Source: Clavelina lepadiformis
Taxonomy: Eukaryota; Chordata; Ascidiacea; Aplousobranchia; Clavelinidae
DNA length: 64,000 bases
Reading direction: 5' to 3'
Assembly: GCF_947623445.1 (NCBI RefSeq)
Contig: NC_135242.1
Location: 2,852,001 to 2,916,000, forward strand
Below the pieces are notes generated by a model that ran no database searches, had not been told where the DNA came from, and saw only the letters and a list, made by a program, of their open reading frames with translations. Numbering within the stretch: position 1 is the stretch's first letter; each line of letters begins with the position of its first letter. Shown here in pieces: positions 1 through 60,896 of this stretch. A program made the position numbers and the translations under genes.

Positions 1-75
1 CTTTAAGCTTGAAGCATTTTCTCAAATAGTAAATTTAGCCACTAATTTTATCCCACCCGACGATATATTTCTTAC

Positions 76-11890: not shown

Positions 11891-11910
11891 ATGATAAGTT
11901 TGTGATGTGA
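11891..11910 (+). other. Two short upstream reading frames, one a start-stop element
   Basis: Just ahead of the ATG at 11915 are a four-codon frame (11891-11905) and an overlapping minimal ATG-TGA (11905-11910). If the transcript includes this leader, ribosomes would meet both before the main start, which would lower translation. A possible splice acceptor (TATTTTCAG, 11841-11849) lies upstream, so the leader is probably exonic. Confidence 0.4.
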
Positions 11911-11914
11911 GAAT

Positions 11915-12901: not shown

Positions 12902-15050
12902 TGAACTGTTACGATATGAGGATATATTCAGATGGATAATAACTAACTAAATAACTAACTTAGTCACGTTTGAACTTGTTTTTAATACCTATTGCAGGCA
13001 ACTATCTATCAACTGAGTGTTAATCGTTGATTCAACATTCTGGATCGTTTCTCATCTTTACCTTAATTAATTGTCTTGATCATAAATTTCTATAAGAAGC
13101 ACAGGCTGTGTTTTACGGTTTATTAGTCTTGTGAATACGCCACTGTTATTGCTTTTCGAGATTCTGAAATTCACAATTTCAACACGAGCTAGCGCACCAT
13201 AGCAACAACAACACTTGTTTTCTTTTGTTTAATATGTTTGAATTGGTCAGTGTCTTTATCATGTTTAAACTCTCCACTTTTTGTTCATTTCTATTTTATT
13301 TATACAACAATTATGTTTATTTTCGTCGCCTACTTTTCTATTTTCTAATGCAGTTGATGAAGCTGTTCAAAGAGAACATGCGAATATAATCGTTGGCTTT
13401 TCGAATCTGTGGGAGTTGAAATTGACATAATAAGACAACTTCAACTAAACATCACCCCGCGTGGCAACGTTCATGAAATAAATTACAAGAAGCCGAATCA
13501 TCCACAATTTCCCCCATTACTGCATTGCCCAAACTATAATTATTTCATGATGTATAATTACACAATCTTTGCGTCCTAACAAAGCTAGAAAAAACTTAAC
13601 ATCGTAGGCCTACGATATCGTGCAATCATTCTTTAGGCGCAAGAACAGTTTACTGTAACCTGCATATGATATACTTTACGTAATTTGCGTCAAATGTTTT
13701 ACATAACGCCGAGAAGTAGGCTTGGTAGACGTTTTGCGTCAACAAGAAGGTAGTTAATTCTTGTAATCGGGCCATAACAAAAGCGCGGGCTAGGGTTATT
13801 GTCGGGAAAAAGCAAACAAAAGTTGTATGGATTACCGAGGCAGCGATGCGCGAAACCTTAGTGCTAGCCAGACCATGCGTAAACTTAAAAGCACTTCGGC
13901 CGAGTTCTGTTAGAAGCACAATAGGTACGGAGTGACGAAGCAGTCTCAAGACGCCCGCATATAGAAGGAAAGTTATCCGTTTAAGCACCGGAAAGTGACA
14001 GGAATCAGTAAAAGAAAGTCGCTATAATGCCGACGTATAGCTTAGTTGCACTGGTAACGATAATGTTGACTAAAATTTTACATTATGGACCGTAAATAGA
14101 TTAGATTAGAGATTGTAAATTTATAGATTAGCCTCCACAAAATGACGAACTTGTTTACCATGTCATGTGATTTCATAATTTGAATGTTAATGCTTTATGG
14201 TTAAGAATATTTGCAAAGTTAAAAACTTGTAGAAACAGCTAAGTTTCTACTTCTAAAGCCTACTGCTGGACTGAAAACTCTTTTAAAACAAACAACGACC
14301 ACCTCAGGTTCTGACAGTTGCGCAACAGTGCAAAGTTTAACCGAGTTCAAACGAGCAAAAATGTCAGACTAGCCACTGCTGGTCCGGTTCGACTAACTTG
14401 ACGTCACTTGTTTGAGTTATTTTTCTGAAGAAACCAAAAAAACTTTGAAAAGTGACGACAATTATTTTTCGTTTGTTCGGTGCGATACTGTTTCATGGTC
14501 GCATGTCAAGAAAGCTTGTTTTCAGCTCACCTGCCCTGCTTTTTGTTAACAGTCGTTTGCCGCTGTTTGTTTTTGAATAAACAAGTTAAAACGACGAGGA
14601 AGCCGTAACTAACTATGCTGTAACTAAGACAAACTATTATTGTAGAACAGACACTAATTTTTATAAGTTGCGCAGGGTTAGAAAATTAGGCGCCATAAGA
14701 GGGTTATGCAACAACTCAAATCCGACAAATCGAACAATAATGATTAGGGTTTGGGTGAAAAATAGAATTGGGGTTTGAATTGTTAGAAGGGAGAGAGCTA
14801 GAACTGTTAGGTTTCAGTTATCAGACAACCTTATAAAATTGACCACTGAATATTTTAGCGCAGTTTTCAAGCTTTCTATGTCCTTCAGGTTTACAAGACC
14901 AAGCACTAGTGTGAGCCTGTGCTTACAAAGCGTATCGCGTATATCAGTAATCCATCTTCATCTGCGCATGTTTTATCCGAAACGTTTGTGTTCTTTTGTG
15001 TGAAGAAGCGCTTGTGCCACTGTGTTTTCAAAGTTACACCAGTAATTTGC
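12902..15050. other. Intergenic region between paralogs A and B
   Basis: No supported gene. It contains one TGACGTCA palindrome (14399) and a TAGGCCTA palindrome near 13604. A minus-strand open frame over 13650-13988 looks like chance. A strong acceptor (GCTTTTTCAG, ending about 15059) at the right edge probably starts the main exon of the next gene. Confidence 0.5.
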
Positions 15051-15080
15051 TTTTTCAGAGCAACTATAGGGGGCAGCCAA

Positions 15081-15098
15081 ATGAAGGGGAGAGACTGA
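15081..15098 (+). other. Five-codon upstream reading frame before paralog B
   Basis: ATG at 15081 runs five codons to a TGA at 15096-15098, six bases before the chosen start at 15104. It lies after the likely splice acceptor and so should be in the mRNA leader. Confidence 0.4.
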
Positions 15099-15103
15099 AA
15101 ACA

Positions 15104-15664
15104 ATGATGATGAATGATGATGACGATGATGATAGGAGCAGTTTAAATGGCTCCTGGCTTAACGTGGCAGTGCCTGTTGTGGCGATGGTCGTCATCTTTC
15201 TAACCTTCCTCACTTTCTACAAAGTGATATGGGAAAAGCTCCGCGGGTTCTGCTGCACGAAATGTACTGACCGTCAGACAAGAGTAGCCACCGTGACCGG
15301 AGGCGTTGGTGGCCATGACAACAACGCCGCCGTTCTCGAAGACGATGTTCCGCCGTCGTACTCCGCTCTCGGAATTTCCAGGAGTAGCCTTGAAATATTC
15401 AGAGTCGCCTGCGATGAGGAAAGCCTGAACCGTGTCTCAACCGGGTCAGACTCGGAGAAGCTCCCTTCCTACGCGGAGTTCATGGAGGAAATGCGCCGAA
15501 AGGAGGAGGAGATAAGATCTTCCCAACAGGATCGGGAAACTGGAGGAAGAACGTCACATCCGGCTCCAAGAACAATGACTATTACGTCTCCCCATGCCAT
15601 AGAAGACCCCGAGGACTCAATTGCGGTTGATGTGAATATAACACAAGATGAAAGTTTACAGTGA
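15104..15664 (+). CDS. Single-pass membrane protein with PPxY and LPxY motifs (paralog B)
   Basis: The 186-residue product begins MMMN followed by six Asp encoded by a GAT-type triplet run. It has one transmembrane segment (about 19-40), a Cys pair and Cys-x-x-Cys just inside (50-54), PPSY (83-86) and LPSY (120-123), then a Glu/Arg-rich helix. It matches paralog A over the PPSYS, EIFRV/VFRV and EKLP-Y-EFM/EIM blocks, in the same order and spacing, so the two are clear tandem duplicates. The frame is open upstream to 14996 without an ATG, and a splice acceptor lies at about 15059. I therefore start at the first in-frame ATG; an upstream exon could extend the amino end. A role as adaptor for Nedd4-type ubiquitin ligases is inferred from the motifs alone. 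Confidence 0.8.
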   Translation: MMMNDDDDDDRSSLNGSWLNVAVPVVAMVVIFLTFLTFYKVIWEKLRGFCCTKCTDRQTRVATVTGGVGGHDNNAAVLEDDVPPSYSALGISRSSLEIFRVACDEESLNRVSTGSDSEKLPSYAEFMEEMRRKEEEIRSSQQDRETGGRTSHPAPRTMTITSPHAIEDPEDSIAVDVNITQDESLQ

Positions 15665-18600: not shown

Positions 18601-18820
18601 TAGAAATCTTGCACTTGAGTATTTTGAAGTTATTTGTTAAAAATCGTTATAGGTCATGTTTTACCGGCTTTACAAATAGGAAGTCCACTAAAATTGTCCT
18701 TAAATGCATTAGAGTGAACCCTTAGGCTAGATTTATGCAAAATCAAAACGTTAAACGCATTCTTTGACGTATATTCTTTGTGTTTAGAGAAAATTAGGTC
18801 AACAAGGAATTAAAGATCTT
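15665..18820. other. Intergenic region between paralogs B and C
   Basis: No supported gene. It probably contains the 3' UTR of paralog B; an AATAAA-like run is near 16655. Around 17711-17725 there is an AP-1-like TGACTCA next to an octamer-like ATTTGCAT, which may be regulatory. Other open frames lack support. Confidence 0.45.
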
Positions 18821-18826
18821 TCAGAG

Positions 18827-19345
18827 ATGTATTATTCAACTACTCAGGGCACAACTTCGACGAGCGAGCCGTCGTCAGAAAACAATTGCGACTGGCATAA
18901 CTTGGCCGGTGGGTGCAAGTACACGTGGTGGGGTCAAGTTGTTGTGTGGTTCATCCTGATCGTCGTCATAATCGGAATTGTCCTTTGCTGCAAGCACGTG
19001 TTCAAAGCCTGCAGAAGTCATACGATCAACCACACAGAAACTTGCCAGCGACGCACTGAACGCTCTTCCGGCGTTCCCACGGCGCCCAACCGCACCGGAG
19101 CTAACAATATAGCGTGGGAATCAACCGCGGAATTTCATGAAGACAAACTTCCTTCGTATGAAGAGTTTATGTTTGAGAAGGGCCAGGGAAGTGCGGGAGC
19201 TTCCAGAGAAACTGAATTTCAAGTCGAAGTGGAGTTGGTGCCCATGCCTTCGACTTCATCGCAACCTGAAGATAATAATGCAGCGACTGGAAATGATAGT
19301 AGAGCAGAGGATGAGGATGAGGATACGCCTCCTCCGCCTTACTAA
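18827..19345 (+). CDS. Single-pass membrane protein with LPxY and terminal PPxY motifs (paralog C)
   Basis: The 172-residue product has a Ser/Thr-rich presumed outer domain with two cysteines (21 and 30), one transmembrane segment (about 36-56), juxtamembrane Cys residues (54, 55, 62), LPSY (108-111) inside an EDKLPSYEEFM block and a run of acidic residues ending in PPPPY at the very carboxy terminus (168-172). The LPSY block matches paralog B, but the central PPSY of A and B is missing and a terminal PPxY replaces it. It lies in the same orientation as A and B, about 3 kb downstream. The ATG follows a splice-acceptor-like CTTTCAG, so a 5' untranslated exon is likely. Function is inferred from motifs: binding of WW-domain ubiquitin ligases and endosomal sorting. 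Confidence 0.8.
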   Translation: MYYSTTQGTTSTSEPSSENNCDWHNLAGGCKYTWWGQVVVWFILIVVIIGIVLCCKHVFKACRSHTINHTETCQRRTERSSGVPTAPNRTGANNIAWESTAEFHEDKLPSYEEFMFEKGQGSAGASRETEFQVEVELVPMPSTSSQPEDNNAATGNDSRAEDEDEDTPPPPY

Positions 19346-39100: not shown

Positions 39101-42100
39101 GACTGTTGATAGTACAGTTTTATATGAAATCCGCTGTAAGAAACTGTAGAGGCATTTTGCGTTAAAGCTAATTAGGAGCTTTGGCAATGGACCAAGTCGA
39201 AAAGTTAAGAAACTTTCCTTGTTGTTTCCGTGGACAACTGGTTGTTTGTAGTGTTGCTTTCAACTGCGTTGTGTATAAAATTGCATGACTGTGTTCACAG
39301 CTTTGCCAGCAACTTCAGTTCTCATTTTTAAAACCGAAAACGTTTAATTCGACTGAATTTCTGCGCGGAGCGGGCCAGCTAGTAAAGCCAGTTTAGGTTA
39401 AATACTGAAAAGTGAATACTCGTTTGAAACTGGCAGTTGAATGTTTTTGTCTGACTTGGTCGAAGCGCTTGGTTCAAGTTATCGGTTTAGTTAGTTTAAG
39501 TTGAAATCGATTTATGGAAAATATAGTCAAAAGGCAATGCATTATATGAGTCTTCTTGGAGATAAATGAGATATGTTACGAGTTGTGTGTGAGTAATTAA
39601 GGATGACGTAAAACAGCGTCATGATACTGACGTATCCGGCTTCAAAATCCCCTCGGTCAAGCTGAGGGGGTATTCTGCTCCGTTGGTAGCTACCATGGCA
39701 ACTGTTTGCGCGATGACTTATGAATATGAGAAGATCTTTGTAGTCCAAAGTTAGGTTTTTACGGAGCTTGAGAATATGGTTGAAACCACGATTATTTTTG
39801 CCTTTTTGCACGAAAGTGAAAGCGTACGGTTCGCACGTTATAAAGACGGCATAAAACGTGATTTTCTAGCGTTTCTTATGCGTGTCGTCATTGAAACATG
39901 ACGTTTGTATGTAATTAAAGTGCACTAATAACATGCCATAACATGCTTTCAGCGGATAGAAGTAGATAGCTAAAACAGATGAAGTCGTTCGTGCCATGCG
40001 AGATTTTGACTAGTTTTTATGCATTTATGTGTTTTTAGCTTGTCATTAATTAGTGTAGTTAGTGGCATATTTTTCTCGAAACTGTAGATCAACTGGCTTT
40101 GCATTTGGAATGGCCGACGAGGTACTACTGTCCACTACGGAAGGGCAGCGACCCGACCAGAAGGCGTCAGACTTTGCCCACTCAGGGCGATTGGCTCAAC
40201 CCGGCCTTGAACTTCGGTTCGAGCACTTGAGCTTCAGTGTCAAGGGTAAACAGATACTGGAAGACATCAGCGGCACTGCCCACCCTGGAAAAGTCATGGC
40301 AGTGATGGGACCAAGTGGTATGTGATTGTTGGTTTCGTTAATGTATGTTTTATTGTGTTTGCTGGTTGTATTGTGGACGGAAAATTGCCCATTCCTAACC
40401 TGTGGTCAGATAATGGACTTTTTAGATATTGGACAGTGTATAGATGCATTTATAGTTAAAACAAAGTTACATTTGTTATTGTATTGATATGCAGGATATC
40501 TGTTGATCGCAAGAAATATGCAGGCTATTGCGTCAACTGGGTTTTAGATTAAGAGGTTTTTTGAAGCATTACGACCGCATAGTTGTTCATCCTGAATTAC
40601 CGCTTCTGAAAAAACGTCTGAAACCGTTGAATTGAAATTTTGAAAAGCACAGCTATATCTTAAAAGATGTCTTTTAGTTGTGTCGATGGCTGTTATGAGT
40701 GGACGGCAGAAATTCCTAAGCCAAATACGTCATGCCTCCCATCTCTAAGTCAGCCACAGACTCAACAAAAACTTAAATAATTGACTCAAGCCGCCGGCTT
40801 TGAGAGCTAATACGCGACGTCTGTTAACTAAGCATTATACTCCCAACCGTATTATTGCAAGACGTTTTTATTATTTCATTAGCTCTTTTATTCCCAACTT
40901 CCTAGGATCCGGGAAGACTACTCTTCTCAATGTCCTCGGTGGTCGCGTCCAATGCGCGCGTTGTCAAGCAACCATCGGTGGACTTCCCCTGACAAAGAAG
41001 ACGAGGAGAAAGATCAGCTACGTGCTCCAGCAGGACATCTTCTTTCCCAATCTTACACTTCAGCAAACCTTGGAAGTACGTAAAAATTTTCCTCTCTATC
41101 TTTGACCGCAGTTGAGGAATTGGTTCGTCTGCGCAAGACGTTCACGTTCGTGAATTGTAAAATTTTCTTAATTTTTTAGCCTTCGGTTAGCGCTAAGACC
41201 TCCCACCTATCCTACCGCAAGTAAAGCGACCAGATAAGTTCTATTTCAATAACAAACGTCACGCGTGCTGCTGTGGGAACACCCATTATGCTTCTCGCAT
41301 ATGCCGTTTGCGTTTTGACTGGGACAGCCTCTTTTTATAGCTTGGCATGCGAATACCCTAAACTCGAAACCCCGCGCATCTTTCATGCGTTGTAAATGGC
41401 AGCAGCGAAAGAACTGGTTTTTCGAGATGTGGTTTCTTCGATAAAGTTATTTTTACTCGTTCCTTTTCTAAAATGCCCGTAGAACCAGATGACAGTAGAA
41501 AGCGTGCTTTGTATACATTTGCGGCAATCTGCTAAACCGTATGAAAGCAACAAGATTATGACCGCGTATTCACCTCAGGGTTTATTCGCGTCTGATCGCC
41601 CGATTGTCTTCCTGATACCCCGGAATCATTCATCATTCTTGCTAGCTTCCTTTATAGCTTGTACGGACCCGGGTGACCTCTTTGGCAGATTGTTTATTAC
41701 ACAGGCCTTGGCGTTAGTAGGTTTGCAGTGTGCATATAGCCGTATTAAGCTAGCATACCTCTATTGTGGCAACTTAATGGCTTAACGCGCATCACGTACG
41801 TATAGATCTGCACATGACTATAAAGGCATTTTTACAAACTTACAATCGTTTGCAATTGCACTTTGAAGTTGTATTTCTAACGACAGCGCAATTTCAAAAT
41901 CTTGCGTCTTACTGAATTGTCGACATTTTTTCTTGCAGTTTGCCGCGGAACTTCGTCTTCCAGAGAGCATGCCCACCACTTGCAAGAAGGAGATCGTGGC
42001 CCAACTAATAGAGCAACTGGACATGGAAAAATGCACAAAAACAAGTGAGTTTCTTGCACTTGCGCGTGGATTATTACGTAGCAACTTATCGTGACCTGTA

Positions 42101-45100
42101 AGGACAATTTTCTACGCTTTTTTTTTGAAACCCATTTATTAACACAGGTTTCGCTGTTAAACTGAAAGACTGGAAAATTACCTAAATATGATGATAGTAC
42201 TCTATATTTTGTCATCCGAAAGGTATTTTCAGCGTTCCTAAAACATTTGAAAGAACCTTCTATTACAGCGATAAGAAATAGTTTTGAAATTGCTAAGGGT
42301 GGTTTATGTCAGTGAGCGATTGCTTTTAATACGTCTGATGGTAAACGGGCAATTTATCAATGAGACTTTCTAGCCAACTGGTCTTTCCGCCACTTTATCA
42401 AACATTGGGACGAACTCATGTTATCAAAGAGACAAAAAGCACGTGAACTTTGTACCGGAAGAAGCTAAATGTGTTTGAAGTATTTCAGATCTTTAAGTAA
42501 TAAATGCTGAAGCTGTAATAAAATGCACCAGTGTCCATCACGCATTACGCAGTATTTGTCTAATTTTGGATGACGCGTGCTTTTTTTTTGCGCAGTCATC
42601 GGGGATAATATGAACCGGGGACTTTCCGGTGGAGAAAAGAAACGTGCCAACATCGCCAACGAACTCCTGACAGACCCGGCCGTTCTCCTTCTTGACGTGA
42701 GTACCACTGTGTTGCTATTTATGTTTTTTCTGAGATTGTTATCGGATGTTCTGAGGGTCAAATCATACAAATTTTCTTTGGTTGTTTCGATTCTTTGTCC
42801 AGACTTGCAAAAGTATCACCAGCAACTTATAAGTCCTAATAACAAAAGGTGTTCAACTGGTGAATTGAGTCTTTCATGAAGCAACGTTTTGTATTTATAA
42901 GTCTTAAGTTCTATTCAAGTAATCCGTCATAGCACGAAATGCACGGAGTTAGCGTTTGATTTTTATGAACAAGTCTGTTCGGTTCTTGATCGATGTGTTT
43001 GGGCAAACGGCTGTTAAAACATCCTGGTTTTCAAACTATAATTGCGTGGAGAGTGTGTGCTATGACGTATCGAACTAGAATTTCAAGTACTTGAAAGTGT
43101 ACTTGATAGTGCGTTGTCAAGGATAACCTCAAATTTTTATCTGTGTCTGCTCACTTTACTATCAGTTAGCGGTATAATGGGTATAATTACTGCAAGTTTT
43201 TCTTTGATGAATTTGTTAAAGCATAAAATTCGTTTCGAAATTTTCCGCTTGATAACCATATTTTGTCGCGTCAATGGTTTTACGTGACCCAGTAGAAATT
43301 TTTTTACGCTTGAAGGTGATTACGTGTTATGTTCACTGGCCTTATTTTCGGTGCGACAATCACATTAATTTACGATAATTCTAGCTTCTGAAAATTAACG
43401 CTGCCATTACAGATTCGCGAAACCGCGTCTATGGGTTCATAGGTTCTGGAAATGTGGTAAGTCCATATTAACCGTTTCGAAAAAACTTGGCTACTGGGTT
43501 ACTGTAGGTCAACACTTCAACACTTGGTAAGGTCACCTCCGGTCACGCTGCCAACGCTTTCCTGTCATTATAAGTGTTCACCTGTAGCTCAACCAAGAGA
43601 TTTCAGCGGAAAATGTACAGTTGGTTCACCTACAACAGCCTTCCGAATAAAAGTCCCAAGCTACGGCGCTTATCGTGTATGTGAATTGATGGTTTCAAAA
43701 TGGAAATTTTCTTTGTACATATTTAACAGCAGCATCGAATGCGGTTACAATGTTCAATTACCCAAGGCGGTTGTATGTTTATCAAGATTACCGACGAAAT
43801 ATTCTACCTCGCTGATCAGACTTATTTCAAGGATTTGTTCGTCGACGTAACAAGATATCAAGCGTTTATTAGACTTAGCAGCATACGAACTAATAAAAAC
43901 TTTGCGCTCGCGGCTTGTAAAGCTGATAAAACTTTCTTTGGCATCTTTCGTAATTTTCTTCGTTTGCAAACATCATCAGGTGTCATGGCGTCATAATGAC
44001 TGATGATCACGTCACGATTTATTCATATTTGAAAGGGAGTGAGTATATGGCAATGCGAGATGAGTAAATGTGTTTAGCTATTCTTTCATTTCACAACTTG
44101 TGTGTCACATTATTAAATGATGGCTAATTCGTCAGTGGCTTGTGCCCAAGTGACAGGTCGTCCAAAACAACGACGTGACAACTTTGTCACTCGCTTAACT
44201 TCGAACCGGACCACACCAACAAACTCAGAGCGCGTAGTGCATAGAAGTGTATTGCACGTAAATAGCCCTCGTCCACGAGAAAATGATTCTAAAACAATAC
44301 CGCTACGTCGCTGTCCAACGTGCAGTCGCAAAACGGAATCGGTCGTCGTGCACCATTGTGTAAGCAATCTTTGTGTTTTTAATAGCTTTAGAGTTCCCAC
44401 TCGCAGAGTAATATACCGAGTTTGCGGCTCGCATTTTCAATCATAAACATTTTTGTCAAGGAAAACAGAGTTGTCACGTCATCTTGCATAAACCACCCGC
44501 TTCCTTTTCTGTAACAAACAGGATGCCATGCGCCACTCATGCGTCGAACGTGTGTTTTAAGTATGATGCTGTTACGTAAACTCAATCTCTATAACTGAAC
44601 TGAATTGAACTTAACGTGGCCTTTACTAAACTGCTAAACTCCTGTCTACATGCGGGTTGCCATGGCGATAACAATGTATTTTGTACGTCGAATCATCATG
44701 ATACTTGTTGACCTCTTGTGTTGAAAGTTGTAGCGTTTGGCAGCGCAGATCTGAAGTCATTTGTGGACAATTTATCGGCTAATTTAACGGATGTTAAATT
44801 TTCACACGAAGCCCTCGTTGTTTAGTCGTCTTGATTTAAAGTTCTTACTGTGTAGTCCATTGACGCTAATGAAGCCGAAATAGACATCTAAGTCACGTTA
44901 TATTTTCATTCTTCGCTTGAAGCGTTGAAATAGTTGCTTTTCAAGCCACGATCAGGGTTATTAATCGATTCCAGTTATTTTTGCCAGAAGGAAGTTTAAG
45001 CGAGCACAGAAATATTGGTTTTTGCGGTCGTCTGACCTGGCAAACAGTTCGACCACATCATTGGAAATAATTAAATGCTGTCTGCTGTGGAGAAGCGTCA

Positions 45101-48100
45101 TTGTAATTGCTATGTCGATGTGTCATTGATGATTTTCCACTTCTGCTGAACCTGTTTGACGCGTTTGACGTGTTCCCGTTTATCCCCGCTTCCACAGATA
45201 ATTTGAATCATGGCGTAGGTCACTGCAGTGCGTTAATTCACTTGCTTTGTTCGTTTGAATCAAAAATCATTAGTTTCGTCTCGTTTTTGGATACACTTGT
45301 GTTCGTTTTGTCGCATTTTGAACACATATTCATAATGTTTGTAATCAGAGAAATTACCCAGGTACTATGTCAGGATCCGCATGTAGTTGTTGTTTGACGT
45401 TGGCTTTGCTTAAAGTCATTCATCATATGTTTGATTTATACGGCACGAAGTATTGCCCAGACCGCCTGTTACGTGACAATGAAGAAAGCAACATGCCCTG
45501 CGCTCAGACTGAAATTTCAAAAATGCGTCAATGTATTGCCACAATACGAAAGTTGCATTTGACGTTATACGTCACTCAGCTTGGGCAATGTCCGCCAAAT
45601 TAAGCCACTTGCGTCTTGGAACGTCTACCAACCACGTCTTCGATGTCACTTGATGTCGTTCTAAATGCTATCTTCCATGCGCTCGATCTGCGTATATCGT
45701 TCTTATAAAATGAGTTCAAACCAATTACGCTCTTATTCATTTGCATGCTTCTACATTGCAGAATCCCCCATTACTTGAAAGCGCCTATATAATTAATCGA
45801 TCGGTCGATGGTTAAGCATGAATCGCTTTATAAAGCTGCACGAATCCTGTGGTATCAGTATCGTGGAAAACGTCATTCGATTTATGTTGCTCAATATCTA
45901 TTAGTACATGCCATTAAAAATAGGCCTTCAAAAATATAACTTCAAATAAAGTATGTTAAAGTCAACATGATGATCAGGCCATTTATGTGCACCACCTGCC
46001 TGTGTTTCAACACAACCGAAGCGTCCAGCCCGATCTAAAAAAAGCACAAGCAGTGGGTTAAAGGTTTCCAGGCGTCACTCTGAGTTCGTCTATTGTTCGA
46101 AATGCCACCCGGATGAAAAACACAATAGGAAATTGGCTTTCGTTGAACAATGCGATGTTACGTAACAGCAAGTGCAATGGGAAGTGATCTTTGTTGTTTG
46201 ACAAATAATGCTTCGCGGGTGTGCTTTGATCGACTTAACAACACATCAGTTGAGGGTCCATGCGCATGTTCGTTGTGGTGACGCATTACCTTTGTGTGCA
46301 CAATACGCGTATGCTTGACAGTATATTGCAGTCGGCCAGAAAGTACCTTAACGACTCGTCTCTACGAAAGCAATGATGTTTATTGTGTACTGTATCATAC
46401 TTGTTGTGTGTGTTGTGTGGGTCGAACCAATACAGTCAATTGCTCCCGGTCGCGAAATTTATAGTAATTCGAAGTTGTGAGGAAAAATGGCGGCTGTGTG
46501 TCCTTTTCAATCTTAGCTTATCGGGATGATTTGTTTGTTTTTACAGGAGCCGACATCGGGCCTGGACAGCAGTACCGCCTATGCGTTGACAATATCTCTG
46601 AAGAAATACGCCGTACAGAGCGGCAAGACAGTCATGATGACCATACATCAGCCATCTGTTCAAGTTAGTGCTGTACTCTCATATTTTATAATAATGTGTT
46701 GGGAAATTGGGAAATTCTATTTTGCCTAACCGCCCAACAAAATTAGGCTTATTTGTTACTCTTGTAATCGTCCTATCAAATGACGTCAAACTTTCCTTCA
46801 CCAATTTATTTTCTCCAGATGTTCTACCAATTCGACACAATTCTGCTTCTGAGTGCAGGACGTATCGCTTACTACGGTACCCCCAGCGATGTAGTGAGCC
46901 ATTTCGCCGAGATGGGACATTCCTGCGATACCAGCCATTACAACCCGGCCGACTTTATACGTGAGAGAAGATCTTACTAGTATAAGAGCCTAAACTATTT
47001 ACTCATGTTGGGTTTTTACTGGATTTCATCGCAATTTGAAAATTTAATCAAACTCTAGACCGCAATCAACTCATTAACTGAGATCAGTATAAAATCTTGT
47101 CAACTTTAAAGAACTTAACTGTTTGTTTTTATATGTTCATGTTATTCTGTCAATCTTCTTATCAGCGTCAGAATTAGTGGAAGGGAATTTTTAAACATTT
47201 TAGTCCTCTTAGCCGCGCTAGTAATTGAAAAATAGATTCGTTCGTATCTTGGCCCCCCCAAACCATGTGACGTAATGGAAGAACCGCTTTAACTCATTAC
47301 TTGTCCTGACGTAATCACACCATGACACCAGTATTGACTGATTTTGTTAAACGGTGCCAAAAGTTACAGAAAACAAAGTCCATTTTCGAACAATGTGTTG
47401 CAAGTATGTTTTCGCCCGGTGAATCCACTGTTGTTACGATGAAGAAGGGTATATTATTTTCGCCTTATCCTTAACCCAAACTGGGATGCGAGTTTTAAAC
47501 AATTTGTTGTGGTATTTGTACCCACGTATTATTTTTCCTTGGAAAGTTCGTATCAATTTATTATGCTTTCATCAGTTGATGTTGTCAAGTCGGGGTCGGA
47601 AGCAGCCGAACACTTAATCGCCGATTCCAACCAGAGACGTCTGACCACCCCAGACTGTCCGATTCTGGCCGAGACAGTCGCAGGAAAAGCGAAAGACGCC
47701 CCGGTATCGAGAGGTAAGTTAACGATCCACCGGAAGAATTTGTTTTGGAAACTTGCGTTAGCTTTTAAAGCGGAAAGTAATAGAACGTGCCATTATTAAG
47801 CGTTGAATTTATGCTTGTGTGTTGAATGCAGTCACAGTAGTTTTTGTATTGCTTTAGATGACGTGGTTATAACAACAGAAACCGGGCAAGAAAAGTTTTC
47901 AAACCTAAACCTAAACGAAAGTGACTTGCGCAATGGAAATTATTCGACCGGAAACGGAAAGGCCGCCGCCAACGGCGGAAAATACATATCACGTGATCCC
48001 GAAAAAGCCGACGTGATTGGTGAGTTAAATTCAATTCCTAATTTAGATTGGTTTATTTTTATTATAGCCCCATGGGCAGTGTATGGGATATGTTTGTTTT

Positions 48101-50793
48101 GTGTCCATAGTAAGTCATCTATCTGTTTAATGTAAATAGTTGGCACGCATTGCATGTAACAATCGTTGCAATTTTGAGGGATTACGGCGGATTATCCTAT
48201 ATACAAACAAGAGTTCTGATAACGCACGTCACCTAACGTTAAATTATGTCGTTCGTTGGTACCGCATTGGCTGCTTTTATCTCCCCACTACACGCTTAAT
48301 AACAATAATATGCAAACATGACGTAATCAATTTGCCCGGAAATGCATTAATGCATACTCTTATAGATTTACGCAGAATTATTTTTCAAGGATTACTTTTT
48401 AGAAACCTTGACATTTACAGACTCAGCTGCTAAAGTTTTGCCGTAGTTGCAGAAGAATAAATTTTGAGAGACTTTGGACAAATTTAAGACACCGTTTCGG
48501 TTCCCAAATACACCGGATCTGTGATTAAACCATACGCGCTAATCATTGTTTATCCAGGCACTTCAGAAACGCATTGTTAAGCAAATAATTTGAAACCTCA
48601 TTGACAATGACTGACAATTACAATGATTGACAGATGACGTAAAATCCTCCGTGGATGAGAGCGATTTATCCTTAGAGGATGAGAACAGAAGAAGATGGCC
48701 GACGTCATTTACAAAACAACTCAGCGTGCTTACCATTCGCAGCTTCATACAAGGAAAGTGAGTATGACGTCACTTATTACGTATAACTCCACCATTGACA
48801 TATGTTCCTAAATGAAGTTTTAAGTCGCGCGTAAAAAGTTCGCGGTGCTTGAAGGTCCTAACATGTTTAAAATCGCATTTGCTGTGTAGTTTGTCCGCTG
48901 TGAAAGATTTAGCCTCAAAATAGTTTGCAAACAGTTGTGAAGTTTCTGAATAAAATTTCGAACCATCATTTCCACATCATTATTTCGTGCGCTTTAACGA
49001 AAGCTTTAAATCGCGGCAGATATCGCTACTTATCGACGCTCAAGTTTGTGAAGACGATCGGAGTCGCGCTGATAACTGGCTTGGTCTGGTGGCAGATAGG
49101 AAGAGGAACGATCACGGAGCAGCAGGCTCTCGACATCGGAGGAGCTCTCTTCTTCATCACTGTTTTCAACAGTTTCAACTCTCTTTTCGATGTCCTCGTC
49201 ATTTGTAAGTTGTTTTTGCTTTATATTAATCTATTCTGTGGTCTTGCTACAGTCTTTCAGTTAATGGGGTTTTGTGCAAAGAAATTTATGCATCGGTAGT
49301 TTGTTAAATGCTGTTTATGAAATAAATTTTATTTTAAATAATCTGCAACTGCTTTCAATAATATCCTTCGATATTCAACAACTGAAACTTCGCCACAAAC
49401 ATTACAATGTATAATATCCATCATATATCCATATAGAGAGAGAGAGACAGTAGCACCACATGCTGACCATTTTAAGACGTCCAGGGAAGTATTTAAACCA
49501 AGTTTTTGAAATTTTTCAGTTCCGAGTGAACGCGAAGTAGTGAACAAGGAGCGAATGGGCGGGTCATATCGCTTGTCGTCTTATTACATTTCCAAAACGA
49601 TCAGCGAATTGCCACTGGCCTTAGTACTGCCAAGCATATCCATGATCATATTCTACTGGATGGCCGGTCTCAATGGATACAATAACGCGTGGGCGTTTTT
49701 TGGTTCCTGGCTTGATATGATAATGGTTACTATTGCGTCACAATCGCTAGGTAAGTCTTAATAAAATAAGGATTAAAAGGATTAGCGAAAAAATTCCTGA
49801 CATTTACCAAACCAAACCACAGCATAAATTCTCAGCACCTGGCACGTTGAACACTGTCGAATAATTGAAGATGGTTGAGCGCGTTCTTTTTTCGCTCAGG
49901 TATTTTCGTCAGCGCCGCCACCATGGACTTCGAGCACGGTCTTGTATTGGCGATATTCATGATGATCACCTACATGTTACTCGGAGGATTTTACATCAAG
50001 AGTTTGCCTCCATGGCTGAGCTGGCTGCGTTATGTATCGCCTTTCTTGTATGCTTGGACGCTCATGTTGTATTTCGAGTTCGACTCCGACTACAGAGTGA
50101 TGTAAGTATACCAAAACCTTTTAGTTGTTGAAACTTGGGAAGCCAATATTTTTGGTAAATTAGAGAGTATTTTAACGCCCGCAAGGCTGCGCTAGATAAC
50201 ATTTTCTGTCCCTTTATTAAAAGCATCAGATAGTAATGTAATGACCTTAAAGGTTTATTTACTACTGCGCTTATTTGCTGGACACGCTGCGTTGTGGTGA
50301 CATTGTCAAAGTTATCCTTCACCCTCAGCATACTTTTGCTGATAATGTGCTTTAGTCATTCAAGTTGGCACAAGAGATTTTCAATTACATAACATACTGA
50401 CCGGTATGAACGTCGTTGCCGTCATAAGCTTCGTACTCCAGCGTTTACGATCTATCATGAAATCATAACGACATTTAATTTTAAATTTCGGCGACTTCAA
50501 AAGCGTCCCCAGCTTTACGACAAGACTATTTAATTTCTTTTCTCTTTCACAGTTGCAACACGGAAAACAGCCTGTACCCGTCGTGCTTGCCTCCGCAAGG
50601 TGGCGGTAACGACACGATGGCGACCATTGCAAGCAACGCGACTCGATACGTGAAAAAAAGTGAAATTTTGGTTTTCAATGGAGCGGATGTACCGGCGTGG
50701 ATATGTTGCGTGGCGCTTGTAACAACTTTAGTACTTTTCCGAGTACTTGGTTATGTATTACTTCGCTTATTTCATAAACCGATCGTAAAGTAG
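36150..50793 (+). CDS. ABCG-subfamily ABC half-transporter, complete, 14 exons
   Basis: Exons 36150-36256, 40088-40317, 40906-41075, 41939-42044, 42596-42696, 46547-46663, 46819-46960, 47576-47713, 47858-48019, 48634-48757, 49020-49204, 49520-49750, 49900-50101 and 50553-50793 join in consistent phase to 751 codons plus stop. The nucleotide-binding domain comes first, as in ABCG: Walker A GPSGSGKT (110-117), Q-loop Gln about 154, signature LSGGE (214-218), Walker B VLLLDE (234-239) and H-loop His 272. A polar, acidic linker of about 130 residues (exons 8-10) precedes a membrane domain with about six hydrophobic segments from 467 on. All catalytic residues are present, so it should hydrolyse ATP and act as a dimer. 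Substrate is unknown. It is not obviously ABCG2, ABCG1/4 or ABCG5/8. The short 36150 exon is supported by phase and an in-frame upstream stop; a second ATG at 40110 is the alternative start. Confidence 0.87.
36257..40087. other. First intron of the ABCG gene, with possible alternative promoter
   Basis: This 3.8-kb intron contains a TATATAAG box at 38692-38699. Downstream are donor-like sequences after short leaders (GCG|GTGAGC near 38780, and an ATG-led 10-codon stretch ending TTCG|GTAAGC near 38930). These could be alternative first exons leading to the internal ATG at 40110. One TGACGTCA lies at 38428. No other coding signal was seen. Confidence 0.35.
38692..38699 (+). promoter_or_regulatory. 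Candidate TATA box inside ABCG intron 1
   Basis: TATATAAG is followed within 100 bp by a donor-like GTGAGC. It may mark an alternative transcript start for the ABCG gene. The evidence is the motif alone. Confidence 0.25.
44120..44446 (+). CDS. Possible nested small gene in ABCG intron 5 (uncertain)
   Basis: The frame begins [20 protein letters not shown] and is basic, with a Cys-x-x-Cys. A donor-like GTAAGC occurs at about 44359 inside the frame, so the codons before it could be a first exon. It is slightly richer in GC than the surrounding intron. There is no recognisable domain. Confidence 0.2.
   Translation: MANSSVACAQVTGRPKQRRDNFVTRLTSNRTTPTNSERVVHRSVLHVNSPRPRENDSKTIPLRRCPTCSRKTESVVVHHCVSNLCVFNSFRVPTRRVIYRVCGSHFQS
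45367..45603 (+). CDS. Possible small Cys-rich protein in ABCG intron 5 (uncertain)
   Basis: A 78-codon ATG-led frame has a short hydrophobic, Cys-containing start ([15 protein letters not shown]), further cysteines and a polar body. It could be a small secreted peptide gene nested in the intron, or chance. Confidence 0.18.
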   Translation: MSGSACSCCLTLALLKVIHHMFDLYGTKYCPDRLLRDNEESNMPCAQTEISKMRQCIATIRKLHLTLYVTQLGQCPPN

Positions 50794-51707: not shown

Positions 51708-51713
51708 TTTATT
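51708..51713 (-). terminator. Polyadenylation signal of the calcitonin-like gene
   Basis: AATAAA on the minus strand lies 54 bp past the stop at 51767. It faces the ABCG signal at 51236, so the two genes converge with about 470 bp between signals. Confidence 0.6.
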
Positions 51714-51766: not shown

Positions 51767-53835
51767 TCAACGGCGACCATAATTATTCAGCATTCCCATG
51801 TTGAAAGATTTATGTTTTGAAGAATTGAGTCTTCCTCCTAAGTTTTGGAGCCAGCAGGTCGATAAACCGCTGCATTTTCTTTGTCTTGTGGTGGCCTGCA
51901 TTGGGGAGAAACCTTCATCAGAGGGCTGTCTCGATTCTGACCGCAATCTAGATATACATGAAAGAAAGGATTAAATATAATAAAGTTGCTTATTAATTTA
52001 TTATTCATAAATATTAATTAATGATTCTAACTTACAGCTTGAAACTGAATCGACAAAAAATCATAAATAAAGTTGTCTTTATCTCCATCTCGCGTCCAAT
52101 GTAAATATAGTTTTAACCTTTTTAAATTATTTGAACAAACCGATGTTTGACTGATGAGTAAGTGGTTATACAGTATATCTATAAAGATGCTTACAGCGAA
52201 AAGCATGAACAAAAACTTATAAATATGCTGACTAACTTCCGAATTGGAGGTAGAAAATATTTTAAATATTTCCAAGAACTTTCAAACAAAGCGTCAAAAC
52301 TTTTCAACGATAACCTGTGCTTCAAAAACACCATAACTTATGCATGGAAAGTCGACATTTCGTAAACATGGAAGTCATACTTGCTGCACTGGCAACAAAG
52401 ATTTTTTAAGATTTTGAAGTGAGATAGTGTTACATAGAATAAGAGCTTCATCTCAACAAAGGTTGTACCGTCGAGGCAATGTCGAGAGAGCTTGAACAAA
52501 TAATTAATAAGTCGAACGTGACCCTTTGTTTGGTTTTAAAAATTCCACAAAATGGCACATCCATTATTTATGGGTAACCTGACGCTAAAAATATTGCAAA
52601 AAAACTAATAAGTGTCTATTGTATGAGATATATTATGTTTTTTCCCCCACACTGCCTGCAGTGTAGTTTTAGAATGAAAAATAAGTCGTCAAGTCGTCTA
52701 AATAAATAAAAATAAAGATCCTTGAAAACAAAATGAAGTAAGCTTAAAAAAAACACGAGAACTTCAAGATTTCGGCAAAACATAAATTTTTACCGCATGA
52801 CAATATTCTTCCAGGGAATTTTGAGTTCGGGTTCTTGCAAGTCCAATGCGTCATTCGGGTCTTCAAGCCCACTTGGGGCCTGCCCATAAGCAGTATACAC
52901 CTGGGCGTCGGACTGGAAAACGTCCCTTTTCGGATCCGCGAGATTCTCCGTAGCAAAATCGTGAGAAGCGAGCCGGCCTAATGCTTTATCACTGAGATAT
53001 CTGCCATAATTACATTAAGTCATGCAGTTAATATACAGTAGTTTCTGCTTGTTGATTGGTGATTAACAAGGAGTTTATTTAATTTAATCATATATCATTC
53101 AAACGCAGTGAGGCAAGAATTGCACATATACGGTAATAATTTACGGTACTCAGCAAATTACAGCAAAACGTATACCTACATATACCTTTCAAACGACTAA
53201 AGCAATTTGTCTTAATTAGAGAAGCCATAACATGGGTCGCATTAAAATTTTATGTGGACGTTACCATAAAATATTTTTTCGAATCAAGAGGCAAGTTTTG
53301 AGGTTCCCACCAGGAGATTACGTAATCACAGCAATAAATAAACAACATCTTACAAGTATAAACACGTGATAAACTGACTTGGTTTATCAATGAAATCGTT
53401 TATCGATGTACTTTTAAATATTTCCGAAAATCTTTTCACCTCTACTTATATCTACACATGCCCAAGCAAGCTAAAGCTTGAAGCTTGGGTTACCATGAAA
53501 AAAGCGTAGTCAAAAGATAGATAAGTAGATAAAAAAGTTTTGCCTGTTTTTTTTTTGCTTCTGTAGGCTAATACGATGTTGGAATTCATTTATCTCGTCA
53601 TCTTCATTTACACCCAATAAACAATTTAGTCAAAATAATTTATCAAATTATAATTCTATGGGTTTGATTTTGGGAACTTTCCACCTGGTCCTCGGTTTTC
53701 ACGCCTTCTTGAAATTAAGTCTCTTAATTTAACTTGTTTATACGCTTACCTTGTACGAAGGAGTCCGCCGGCATTTGGTCTGGGTTGAACAATCACAGCT
53801 ATGAAGAGCAGAATATTCTTGATTGAAAGAGCCAT
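51767..53835 (-). CDS. CT: Calcitonin-family preprohormone
   Basis: Three exons, 53835-53750, 53000-52794 and 51947-51767, all joined in phase 2, give 157 residues. Residues 1-22 are a clear signal peptide (MALSIKNILLFIAVIVQ...). An acidic propeptide with an internal Lys-Arg (53-54) follows. A furin-type RQRK (119-122) then releases a 32-residue peptide starting CSGLSTCWL (Cys 123 and Cys 129), and the chain ends in Gly-Arg-Arg, an amidation and cleavage signal. The mature peptide would therefore be 32 residues long with a Cys1-Cys7 ring and an amidated Tyr. Ring size, LSTC core, length and amidation are the hallmarks of calcitonin. As I recall, Ciona calcitonin has a similar STCWL ring but ends in Pro-amide; Tyr-amide is typical of amylin and adrenomedullin. 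It is expected to act on class B calcitonin-type receptors. None of its exons forms a long open frame. Confidence 0.85.
52036..52088 (-). CDS. Possible alternative first exon of the calcitonin-like gene (uncertain)
   Basis: An ATG-led stretch MEIKTTLFMIFCRFSFKL ends at a good GTAAGT donor in phase 2, the phase needed to join the hormone exon at 51947. It would give a 77-residue precursor with a poor, short signal sequence. Because the longer three-exon form has a much better signal peptide, I regard this as an alternative start at best. Confidence 0.25.
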
Positions 53836-55310: not shown

Positions 55311-57229
55311 GTATTTTTACTTTGATATAAGCATCGAACTTTTTCTAACAGGTAAGTCACACATTGCCATAGATATATCAACAAAATCTTCTTCAACTTT
55401 TCCCCCATTTTTAAGGCTTTACTTACTCTCTAATTGGATTTTCGCTTTTTTTGTTTTATTCTTCGAGTACCCTCCGCCCCTCCGCCCCTCCGCCCCTCCG
55501 CCCCTCCGCCCCTCCGCCCCTCCGCCCCTCCGCCCCTCCGCCCCTCCGCCCCTCCTGTCTCTTTTTTTGTCGTTAACCGTATAACCTCTGTTGAATTGAT
55601 CGAGGTTGAGTTGAATAGACATGGATTGGAACCATTGTCATATAATTGCTTAATGCTTTTTGTTGTTTATGTTTAGTTTGTGCAAAATTGGAATGCAATC
55701 CTCAGTCGGAAGATAAAGATTATATCATGCCATATACCACCAAGTACATAACTTATACTTAATGACCGCAGCGCCTTGTCTGGCCAGGTATAATCCTAGA
55801 ATTGAACTCGATAAATCAAGAAACTTGCACTCGAAAGGCAACGACAAACAAAGTTTAAAAGGACACCAGCCATAACATGCACTGTGGTTGCTAACGCGTT
55901 ACTATAACTTGTATAAGAGCAAGAGATATCAACCAATCACAAAAGGTTTTGGTCGCATGTTTGTGTTCTAGTCCGAAGCTACATTGAGGCATTTGCTACT
56001 TCCCTCAGTAATTTTTTTGGAAATCTAACATTTTTAGTTTCAAGTGCTCAACTGCATTTAGCAACAGGCCTAATCAAGGATTAAGTGACATGTTTGTCTC
56101 CGTTAATATTTAACCCTGGATGCGGCCTTGGTTGCTGTGTGGTTTGGATTTGTAGCCTATAGTATAGTATAGGCAAAGGCTGCAGAAACTACTTGATAAA
56201 ATTTGGTTGCGATGCATTTTGAAACATGCTTAACTAGGAAACTAAATCCGAAATGGAATATGTTTGTAGAAGGCGACAACAAGAAAAGAGCAGTTGCAGA
56301 AAGGAAGGAAAGGCAGAATTAATTTTGTAGACTCGTACTGGTGTATTGCTGCAGCAGTGAGTAAATCGCAACATTCGCCTACGCCAGATGGCTGCGCAGT
56401 TGCAGTAAAACACTCTGTTTCTCCGCAACTCTTGCTCAACCGTTTCGCGTGGTCCGGTTGGTCATATGTGTAGAATGTGAAAGGTTTAAATTGTTTTGTA
56501 TCTGCCTACACTGCTATGCCCTGTTCATTTACTGGATGATCAGCTTGGCAGTGGAAGTCTTGCGATCTATGCTCAGAAAAGGCGGTATCGTTATTAAACA
56601 AAGCGCTCTAAGACCGTCACTAGAGGGACCTTTATTTTGCAAAGATGGTGAAAGATGGTCAAGGAATTAGCCACAGACACCGATTGTCATGTGCAAAATA
56701 CGATTTCTATGCAAAGATTGGTTTCGTTTAAAATGAACAAAAACATGTTAAGTACAAGCGCATTTGATATTCTGTAAACGCAACCAGATGCAGTGTTAAA
56801 ATTTCTTTCAGCACCTTAGGCATTACCACAGGCTTGTGTTTCGATTAATACTGACGATAACGCACAAAAATGCGTTCCATTGATACGATGCTCGAAGACT
56901 GCATCGGAAATGGAAGGTATCAAGCTGCAATTATAAGCTTGGTTCTCTTGGTCGGCATACCGGCGGCTTTTATGCAAACTGCTACGGTATTCATAGGTAA
57001 GCCCACTTCAAGTTTTTTAAGAATGCATACGGCTTTGGAACTTTGTGTTTACAAGTGCTTTATGAGTTTCTACAATATCTTCCCTGTATATTTTGCGTTT
57101 TACGTTTCTTATATTTGTTATTCTGTAGCGGTAGACTCTCTTTTTTTCGATCGGTTTATTAGTTGTTGTTCATCCGGCTGTTTTTTGATCACATTTTGCA
57201 TATTTGGATCGAGTTCGTTTGCACTGTGT
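55311..57229. repeat. Tandem segmental duplication, copy 1 (portion matched in window)
   Basis: From GTATTTTTACTTTGATATAAGC at 55311 the sequence aligns, with substitutions and small indels, to the stretch starting at 62089. The offset is about 6.77 kb. The matching part includes upstream sequence and exon 1 of the SLC22-type gene and presumably continues past 57229, where the second copy leaves the window. Confidence 0.9.
55470..55555. repeat. 8-bp GC-rich minisatellite, G-quadruplex-prone on the minus strand
   Basis: About ten tandem CCGCCCCT units. The minus strand reads GGGGCGGA repeated, which could fold as G-quadruplexes. The equivalent place in duplication copy 2 (about 62235) has no such array, so it expanded after the duplication or was lost from copy 2. 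Confidence 0.9.
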
Positions 57230-60200
57230 CTGTGTGCGGATGAAACAACGGCTGTTGTTTGCTTTAAAAGTGTTCATTAAGTGCAATCATGTCTGTTTTT
57301 GCAAAAAAGTCAATGACATAAATCAACTTTGTTTTGGAAGACAGATTTTGCTGTACAGCAGTTTCACAAACTTTCATTCAAAACAATTTTCTTCTTAGCT
57401 GCTTTGCCCGATGCGAGGTGTTGGATTGAAGCTGTCGACAACGACACAGCAAGCGATGTTTTGTCCGAAGATGTCATCAAAAGCGCTCTGATACCCTACG
57501 ATGAAATCGCCCAGGTACATATTGGCCAACAAGAAGCAACATACAGTACATGTCGTGGCTGTATTGCACCGCTTTGCTTAATTCTGTTTTGTATTATGTG
57601 CTATTTACACATTTGTGCTGTGTTATGTCCTTCCGGGAAAACACAAGCAACTGCAGTACGACAACATATCATCTCCAAATTCGACATAACACAATTTCAT
57701 ACCTGACAAGAGTGTCTTCTATATATGGTCTGAAGTGGTTCTTGACTGTTCTTAAGTTTTTCAAAATTCATTCCATTTTATAATTAAATTCTTACCATGT
57801 ATTATTTCTGTGCTCCTCGAACCAGAGTCTTCTAGGCTACTCCCTAAAACCCTGTGCCTTCTGTATATACTCGCATTGGTCTTATATACCTACTTGTACA
57901 TTTCTGTTTTTAAACTTATACCCTTTATGGCAACAGAGATACGACAGGTGCCATATGTTTAATTACAATCTTACGGGTTGTGAAGGAAACCTTAATATAT
58001 CACAATGTGTCGACGATGTCACCAATTCAACTTCGCCTAACATTGGAGATTGTCAAGACGGTCATCACTTTAGCAGAGATATCTTCGAGAGCACGGTAGC
58101 AACAGAGGTAAAGAATTAAAGAAGAAACTGAACTAAAATGTTGTCCTAATACGATTGTAAATATAATCCACGTGTCTTTGCGTATCATACAGTGGGATCT
58201 TTTGTGTGGGAGACTCACACTGAAGTCGGGGTCAACTTCCGTCTTTTACTTTGGAGTTTTGGCCGGTTCCATCATCGGAGGTGCACTCTCAGACAGGTTA
58301 TTTGACGCTATGAGTACGACGTATAAATTCGTAATCAAAAACAAACGTACAAGATATTTGGCGCACAGCCAGCTTACAGTCAGTTTTTCTGAAACACGAT
58401 GGATAGAATCTTCCTGTTACTCAGCTTTTAGTACCTTAAGTTTGAGCTAGTTCGAAGATTGATAACGAGAAACTTAAAGGCAATTTTTTGCACAAAACAA
58501 ATCATTTTATGCTTGTCGCCTTTGAAACTAACACCATACAAATCAAAAAACACGTGTTAAGCAAATAAAGTTTTAAATCTCGCAGTTGACTTGATATGGG
58601 TGAATTTTTCCCGACAAATGTCCTCTACAATTTCTTATATAAAGTGTTTTTATAAAAATAAAAAAAATGTCCGTTGAACTTCTTTACTTCTGGCAGTTTT
58701 TGTTGCTACGTTTTATCCACTATTTTTGTTGCTCACAGATTCGGCAGGATCTTGATATACAAAATAGGATTGCTTGCTGGACTTGTAGTTGGAATCGCTG
58801 TTGCATTTTCTCCAAACTATTATGTATTTTCACTGCTGCGGTTTCTACTCGCGCTGCTCTTCAAACCCGCGTCACTGGCCGCCGTAGTTTACGGTAATTG
58901 GCTCAACCACTTAAAATCTTCAGACTTCTTACATAAGCTGCTGGAGACTATAATAATCATGCAAAAACTTTCACCATCTGCTTAAACTCTGATAACCTCT
59001 ACACGCAGCGTTGGAGGTTTCCCGTGAACGATGGAAAACAACTGCAGCTCTTGGCTACAACATCGTCTACGGACTTGGATGCGTGATCATGTCCGGATTG
59101 GCAATCTTCTGGAGGAATTGGCGGCCGCTGCAAATTGCTTTTTCCTTGGGGTTTCTTCCACTTGTTCTTACCAGTTTCTTTTTACCGGAATCGCCAAGGT
59201 CAGTGGATGACAATGAACCTTCTGGAACCTTGATAATCATGCGTTTGTGTATTTCGATGCGATTCACGTGATACCTCGTGTGTGACAGGTGGCTCGTGTC
59301 AAAGGAAAAATTTGTAGAAGCCGATAAAACCCTCAAGCTGATGAGAAAACGGAATCACGCGAAAGGAGTTGTCGATTTAAACACGGAACGCGATTTAGCT
59401 CCTGTTGCTGCTGATAAGAGAGAGGTAATTGCAACGACGTCACCATGTTTAAAATCAAATTCCCGCCCATTTATATGTTTGGTGAATTTATAAGCATATG
59501 GTACAGCAACTCCAACCTACGATTGTATCCCAAACACGATATGTCACGCGCGCTTGATTTTTCAAGGTAAATAAAAAAGACGGCAATTCCTTGATAGAAA
59601 CCTTCTCCAGGCCTTACTCGAGAATGATGACGATCAACAACATGTTTGTGTGGATGATCACAAGGTTAAAGTCTTCAGCGCATCTGATCTGACCATAGTT
59701 TAATCTCTGGCCTCAATCTTTAGTCTACTTTTCATTACATTTTATAAACTCTTCTCCTACGCATAATGTTTATCGATGTTTTCGATTAGCTTGGTCTACT
59801 ACGGAATTAGTCTCAATAGCGGCGCTCTGGCGGGAAATATCTACGTAAATCATGCGCTAGGTGGCGTTATGGAATTTGCTGCATGTTCTCTCTGCATTGT
59901 TGCCATCTCAAGATTTGGATGTAGAAATTGGACTGTGATAACGTTGGTATTATGCGGCCTGTCCTGTCTACTGTCAACCATTGCCTTGCACGTCGGTGCC
60001 GGTGTAACAGGTGATGCAATGAAGAAAGCCTGGAATTATGTTACACGCGTAATTGAAATATCAGCTGGTTACCACAGAGTCCCAAACCAGCGATGAAAAT
60101 GTTACGTTAATTTAATGTTGGTTTATCTTGTAGCTGCTTACTAAAAAGTTTTCCTTTTAGCAATTAAATATATTGGCCTGGTGTTGGCAATGAGTGGACG

Positions 60201-60896
60201 ATTTGGATCTAGCGCCGCTTTTGCTGTTCTTTACGTCCACACGGTGGAGCTCTTCCCGACTTCTGGAAGGTTCGAGAAAATTTTGCTTGACGACAAACCT
60301 TGAATTTGTCAGTGGATTGTAAAAAATACTTAAAAATAAAGATAAAAGTTGAACTGAATTTGTATAGAAAGAGGTTTTGTAGATATATAGAAAATATGTG
60401 TAAGTATAATCTATATATATGTCAGAATGTAGAAAATGTGTAAGTATTTTGATAAACTTTCCAGGAACACGGCACTTGGTTTAGCGTCCATGGCAGCTAG
60501 AATTGACAGCATTATAACCCCGTTTACGCTCCAAATTCAGTATCAAGTCCCCTGGCTCACTCAGGTGTGAAGTCAAACAATCGAGTCCTTTTGTCTCTGA
60601 TATTTTCGTAAACAAGAGTTTAACAACCACTTTTATTCACTTTGGGTGTAGTTCAAGAAAATATTTTGAATTATTGTAAAAACATGTATAAATCAATATT
60701 AATTGTATGCAATTTCACCATTTTAAAGGCTATTTTCGGTTTCACTGCATTGGCTGCTGCTTGCGTTGCCTACAGCTTTCCAGAAACGAAAGATAATTCC
60801 CTGCTGATGACGTTCAACGAAACAGAGAAGTATTTCGAAAAGAACCTTCGTTCCTCAAAAATGGCGAAGATTTATTGTATATCTGGAAAACGGTAA
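56870..60896 (+). CDS. SLC22-type organic ion transporter (MFS), complete, 12 exons
   Basis: Exons 56870-56996, 57399-57514, 57937-58107, 58193-58296, 58739-58893, 59009-59198, 59289-59424, 59567-59664, 59790-60010, 60161-60269, 60465-60564 and 60729-60896 join in phase to 564 residues, a normal length for SLC22. A first membrane helix is followed by a large Cys-containing extracellular loop (about 44-138). Then come the STVATEWDLLC block, the MFS loop motif ALSDRFGR (169-176), the helix-6/7 PESPRW (284-289) and a second half with LYVHTVELFPTSGRNT. These are SLC22 organic cation/anion transporter hallmarks; the loop cysteines fit the disulfide-stabilised, glycosylated outer loop. It probably moves small organic ions across the plasma membrane; the substrate is unknown. 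A close tandem copy starts at 63641. Exon 8 begins at a TTTTTCAAG acceptor, chosen because it alone preserves frame and the family sequence. Confidence 0.87.

Follow-up and report, generated by a model that had tools for sequence, protein, structure and literature searches.

We identified a gene on chromosome 3 of Clavelina lepadiformis, near 2.904 Mb, that we are very confident is a calcitonin/CGRP-family prohormone gene, orthologous to Ciona calcitonin and single-copy within the reach of our searches. The hormone predicted from it would end in a Tyr-amide, and this predicted terminus breaks the Pro-amide rule published for calcitonin (CT)-type peptides. The gene lies on the minus strand of a 64,000-nt stretch of NC_135242.1, called the window here, and coordinates are positions in the window unless another sequence is named.

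Exon assembly joined minus-strand exons of 86, 207, and 181 nt into a single 157-residue frame followed by TGA, with both introns running from GT to AG in phase 2 (Table 1). This confirmed an earlier note made from the letters of the window, which had proposed a three-exon, phase-2 chain carrying RQRK, a 32-residue peptide, and Gly-Arg-Arg. The precursor consists, in order, of a signal-peptide-like start, a propeptide, RQRK, CSGLSTCWLQNLGGRLNSSKHKSFNMGMLNNY, Gly-Arg-Arg, and the stop. In a hydrophobicity scan, used in place of a dedicated predictor, the highest-scoring 11-residue windows covered residues 5 to 18, as in a signal peptide. Three dibasic sites start at residues 53, 121, and 156; none falls within the mature peptide, and the latter two bound it, giving the signal peptide and bounded peptide expected of a family member. 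The Gly-Arg-Arg-stop ending likewise supplies the C-terminal amidation signal expected of the family. The GC content of the exons is 45 to 51%, versus 30 to 32% for the introns. With a disulfide and an amide, the predicted peptide has a monoisotopic mass of 3556.658. An RQRK site with Lys at the cut differs from the classic furin form. The human CALCA gene would be a close match in layout: its Arg29 is likewise split in phase 2, and a phase-2 junction precedes its peptide exon. The Clavelina peptide has Cys1 and Cys7 with five residues between them, a predicted ring that conforms to the deuterostome CT-type form of two N-terminal cysteines 4 to 5 residues apart described in the available text of PMC6002491.

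Table 1. Features of the Clavelina calcitonin-type gene and other peptide-like matches in the window
Feature	Position	Strand	Remarks
Coding exon 1	53750..53835	-	ATG, signal peptide, propeptide start; split Arg29 codon (phase 2); donor GTAAGC
Intron 1	53001..53749	-	749 nt, GT..AG, phase 2
Coding exon 2	52794..53000	-	N-terminal propeptide, KR at residues 53-54; split Arg98 codon (phase 2)
Intron 2	51948..52793	-	846 nt, GT..AG, phase 2
Coding exon 3	51767..51947	-	Propeptide end, RQRK, mature peptide, GRR, TGA
RQRK convertase site	51875..51886	-	Residues 119-122, placed from translation
Predicted mature 32-residue peptide, CSGLSTCWLQNLGGRLNSSKHKSFNMGMLNNY-amide	51779..51874	-	Residues 123-154
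Gly-Arg-Arg amidation and cleavage signal	51770..51778	-	G155 R156 R157
AATAAA polyadenylation signal	51708..51713	-	54 nt beyond stop codon
Other Cys-pair-plus-amidation matches	58784 and 58802 (overlapping)	+	Six-frame window scan
Other Cys-pair-plus-amidation match	21894	-	Six-frame window scan

The surroundings of the gene hold several other features. A short GC-rich tandem repeat lies at about 55434-55584, ~1.6 kb upstream of the calcitonin start codon. Two flanking genes lie on the plus strand. The one at 40059-50793 encodes an ABCG2-like transporter, one of whose three tested pieces matched ABC2_membrane at E 1.2e-8; the one at 56861-60896 resembles an SLC22-like transporter by eye, the one piece tested giving no Pfam match. 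Three plus-strand open frames that neighbor one another (11906-12496, 14951-15664, and 18788-19345) each combine, by eye, a single hydrophobic stretch with a tail rich in proline and tyrosine; they resemble duplicated small membrane proteins, with one weak WBP-1 match below the cut-off. At 35-4823 on the minus strand, exons that look sushi-like by eye probably belong to a CCP-repeat gene, the one piece tested matching PF00084 at E 1.9e-7.

Family membership was assessed with the Pfam calcitonin/CGRP model, with peptide queries, and against chance. PF00214 matched the assembled protein with an E value of 8.6e-4 and 20.2 bits, just under the curated cut-off of 22.3. In a search of the whole genome (209 Mb), which lacked a positive control in that 14 control genomes gave no match, the model returned this locus as its sole match, the exon alone scoring E 0.125 and 19.9 bits, again under the cut-off. 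A Ciona calcitonin query also found this locus as its sole genomic match (E 0.048). Queried alone against the PDB with phmmer, the peptide returned no calcitonin and one chance enzyme match (E 1.1), and no Rfam model reached its gathering score anywhere in the window. The ring motif by itself is unremarkable, with 1 match in the window versus 82 in 300 dinucleotide-shuffled windows. Requiring a dibasic site, the ring, and a downstream amidation site together leaves one match in the window and one in 300 shuffles, a pattern that was defined after the peptide had been seen; the PF00214 match is sequence support that is independent of this post hoc pattern. A second genomic match to the ring pattern, on C1, was rejected because it sits among stops and is without a downstream amidation site.

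The spliced frame, the PF00214 match, the Ciona query, and the CTR/CLR-type receptor gene described below bear out the proposal of a calcitonin-type prohormone in a tunicate. The earlier note had called it the tunicate member of the family; membership holds and uniqueness does not, the Clavelina gene being one more tunicate member and not the first, because Ciona calcitonin was published in 2009 (a reference in the available part of PMC12638048; described in that of PMC6283891). No other tunicate calcitonin sequence was found among the matches listed from the open-licence literature, in which Clavelina and calcitonin are mentioned together in one paper, a review of nicotinic-receptor compounds. 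Within Clavelina, six-frame genome searches with PF00214, the precursor, and the Ciona query returned no second calcitonin gene; such searches assign scores to their top candidates alone, and a second copy that had diverged far could escape them.

We aligned the mature peptide with nine peptides and scored each alignment against 500 shuffles, for the whole peptide and for the residues after the ring. PDB chains 6niy and 7tyh bear out the salmon and human CT sequences that we used; for the Ciona CT sequence, the accessible text of PMC6283891 bears out the length, the ring, and the Pro end. Over the whole peptide, Ciona CT (z 9.2) and salmon CT (z 5.2) scored highest, with 0/500 shuffles reaching either score, followed by human CT (3.2), amylin (3.0), CGRP (2.5), adrenomedullin (2.3), and the echinoderm CT-type peptides PpCT (2.1), ArCT (1.8), and AjCT2 (1.3). 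After the ring, Ciona CT (z 3.7) was the sole peptide of the nine whose score was reached by 0/500 shuffles. The corresponding post-ring values were 1.7 for salmon CT (43/500), 0.1 for CGRP (220/500), 0.0 for human CT (235/500), 0.6 for PpCT (122/500), -0.2 for ArCT (277/500), and -0.9 for AjCT2 (416/500). Much of the similarity over the whole peptide resides in the ring.

Ciona CT is the nearest of these peptides in layout as well. According to the available portion of PMC6283891, it is a 30-residue peptide with Cys1 and Cys7, the one peptide encoded by a gene of four exons. The two tunicate peptides share a single peptide per gene, predicted amidation, a ring and helix start of the form CxG[VL]STCWLxxLG, and N-x-G near the tail, and 11 of 30 aligned residues are identical. 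They differ in that the Ciona peptide has 30 residues and a Pro end, whereas the Clavelina peptide has 32 and a Tyr end. Against the four Ciona exons in all, we found three coding exons in Clavelina, and a non-coding first exon in the Clavelina gene is possible. Salmon and human calcitonins share with the Clavelina peptide the length of 32 residues, Cys1 and Cys7, and the C-x-x-L-S-T-C ring but end in Pro, and the post-ring similarity of human CT is nil. The echinoderm peptides share the ring and an amidated tail but carry an N-terminal extension and an FGxxGP-type tail, and their overall similarity is weak.

The tail sets the Clavelina peptide apart. Its C terminus is encoded as Tyr-Gly-Arg-Arg, giving a predicted Tyr32-amide where a Pro-amide is the rule, and Gly27 is sixth from the end, not fifth. 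The available text of PMC6002491 and PMC12638048 gives a C-terminal Pro (amide) for all aligned CT-related peptides except CGRPs, and that of PMC6002491 a Gly fifth from the C-terminal amide in many CT-type peptides. Ambulacrarian, amphioxus, and Ciona members have the Pro-amide end (PMC6283891, in part), as do mussel CT-type peptides (PMC7200681, in part). One peptide, AjCT1, is printed two ways within the accessible parts of PMC12638048, ending in FGSA-amide in the methods table and in FGSAGP-amide in the text. The contrast with the Ciona Pro-amide drawn in the earlier note thus stands at the level of gene prediction.

That note had likened the Tyr-amide end to amylin or adrenomedullin and suggested a bearing on how the vertebrate family diversified. 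On such a reading, the Tyr-amide would be ancestral to, or homologous with, that of amylin and adrenomedullin, and the gene would record an early step of vertebrate-family diversification. The terminal residue is indeed identical, and N-x-G near the tail occurs in amylin and CGRP too. The likeness does not extend further: the post-ring scores of amylin (z 0.9) and adrenomedullin (z 0.6) were reached by 95/500 and 138/500 shuffles, and similarity beyond the ring favors Ciona CT, so the bearing on vertebrate diversification found no support. Amylin has 37 residues, Cys2 and Cys7, and a TAT ring, whereas the Clavelina ring begins at residue 1 and has five residues between its cysteines, as in calcitonin. 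The Tyr is also five residues past the conserved Gly in Clavelina and four in amylin, and the Pro-amide ends published for Ciona, amphioxus, and ambulacrarian members argue in the same direction. We consider homology of the Tyr-amides extremely unlikely. A single lineage-specific change, with a last letter convergent with amylin and adrenomedullin, is the simpler reading, and the shift from Pro to Tyr, with the longer tail that goes with it, most likely arose inside the tunicate lineage.

Two further explanations concern the gene itself. It could be real and have, in addition, an unseen alternative exon for a canonical Pro-amide peptide, given that calcitonin genes of vertebrates (CT/CGRP) and echinoderms use alternative splicing. 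In the window, however, a six-frame scan gave only three other Cys-pair-plus-amidation matches, all far away or on the opposite strand (Table 1). Intron 2 has one G-K-K (52646), which lacks a Cys pair, and no second Cys-pair-plus-amidation exon; between 51766 and 46000, the minus strand holds no P-G-[KR][KR]. The single peptide of the Ciona gene also speaks against such an exon, which we regard as very unlikely. That the locus is a degenerate gene copy, or open frames strung together by chance, is scarcely credible. The frequency of the ring motif in shuffled windows would allow for it, but the frame is free of stops and frameshifts, its two introns match in phase, exons and introns contrast in GC, and the processing sites are in register; the locus is also the sole one that the family model returned.

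The same genome contains a candidate receptor. Starting from a fragment of the human calcitonin receptor, we found the best receptor locus at C4:15,387,646-15,392,515. Among the best 60 of 106 matches, its eight joined translated pieces scored 213 bits with human CTR and 212 with CLR, and the next type, PTH2 receptor, scored 134; judged by these scores, the C4 gene is a CTR/CLR-type receptor. The second-best locus (C5:20.745-20.7505 Mb) is PTH-receptor-like, with 221 bits versus 128 for CTR. At the site of the Trp in the WDGWLCW of human CTR, the C4 candidate has Ile (WDGILCW), and it keeps the WTNYT stretch. We take the Trp at this site to be the CLR "Trp shelf" (W72) beneath the bound peptide tail and WTNYT to be the part that holds the peptide amide. 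In another tunicate, Styela clava, a receptor is present in the published tree in the available part of PMC12638048.

Further receptor-like sequences are scattered through the genome. Family-B-like 7TM exons form a large tandem array at about 0.49-3.24 Mb of C4, a big receptor expansion with dozens of matches, mostly to CTR-query residues 146-199 and 239-316 at 28 to 42% identity. Near-alike hormone-receptor-domain exons (DGxVCWKHTKxG) on C7, C4, C1, and C3 suggest dispersed copies of one family-B receptor.

The search for an amidating enzyme covered the PHM half, and a PHM domain encoded at about 7.14 Mb of C3 scored 112 bits with amidating monooxygenase versus 26 with dopamine beta-hydroxylase. 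Apart from this locus, many of the 32 matches to PF03712 (copper monooxygenase C-domain) are clustered at C7 14.27-17.08 Mb. Neither PF04901 nor human RAMP1 gave a RAMP match in the genome, in searches that had no positive control and do not imply absence; the accessible text of PMC6283891 reports none found in Ciona.

These components suggest how the hormone might work. A convertase would cut the precursor at RQRK and RR, Cys1 and Cys7 would close a disulfide ring, and an amidating enzyme would convert the C-terminal Gly to leave Tyr32-amide. The peptide would bind the CTR/CLR-type receptor encoded on C4, the ring entering the 7TM core and the amidated tail docking on the extracellular domain. 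Binding would probably raise cAMP, as Ciona CT does in cells that express human CTR (PMC6283891, available text). Excerpts of PMC11698069 place the expression of Ciona CT in pharyngeal cells that co-express prohormone convertase 2 and in cells that surround the stomach.

The tail of the ligand and the pocket of its receptor may have evolved together. In the fuller account, this is a Tyr-amide calcitonin outside the vertebrates in which the near-universal Pro-amide was lost and the tail lengthened in the aplousobranch line, with the receptor changing alongside; we offer this account tentatively, as a possibility somewhat short of probable. The Clavelina gene alone does not explain the origin of amylin or adrenomedullin. 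As a second, diverged tunicate calcitonin, it shows which parts of the hormone have been held (the ring, STCWL, N-x-G, and amidation) and which have been free to vary (the last residue and the length of the tail). A single genome offers the ligand together with its likely receptor, each of them altered in what may be the interface that binds the tail, a pairing that is testable in cells.
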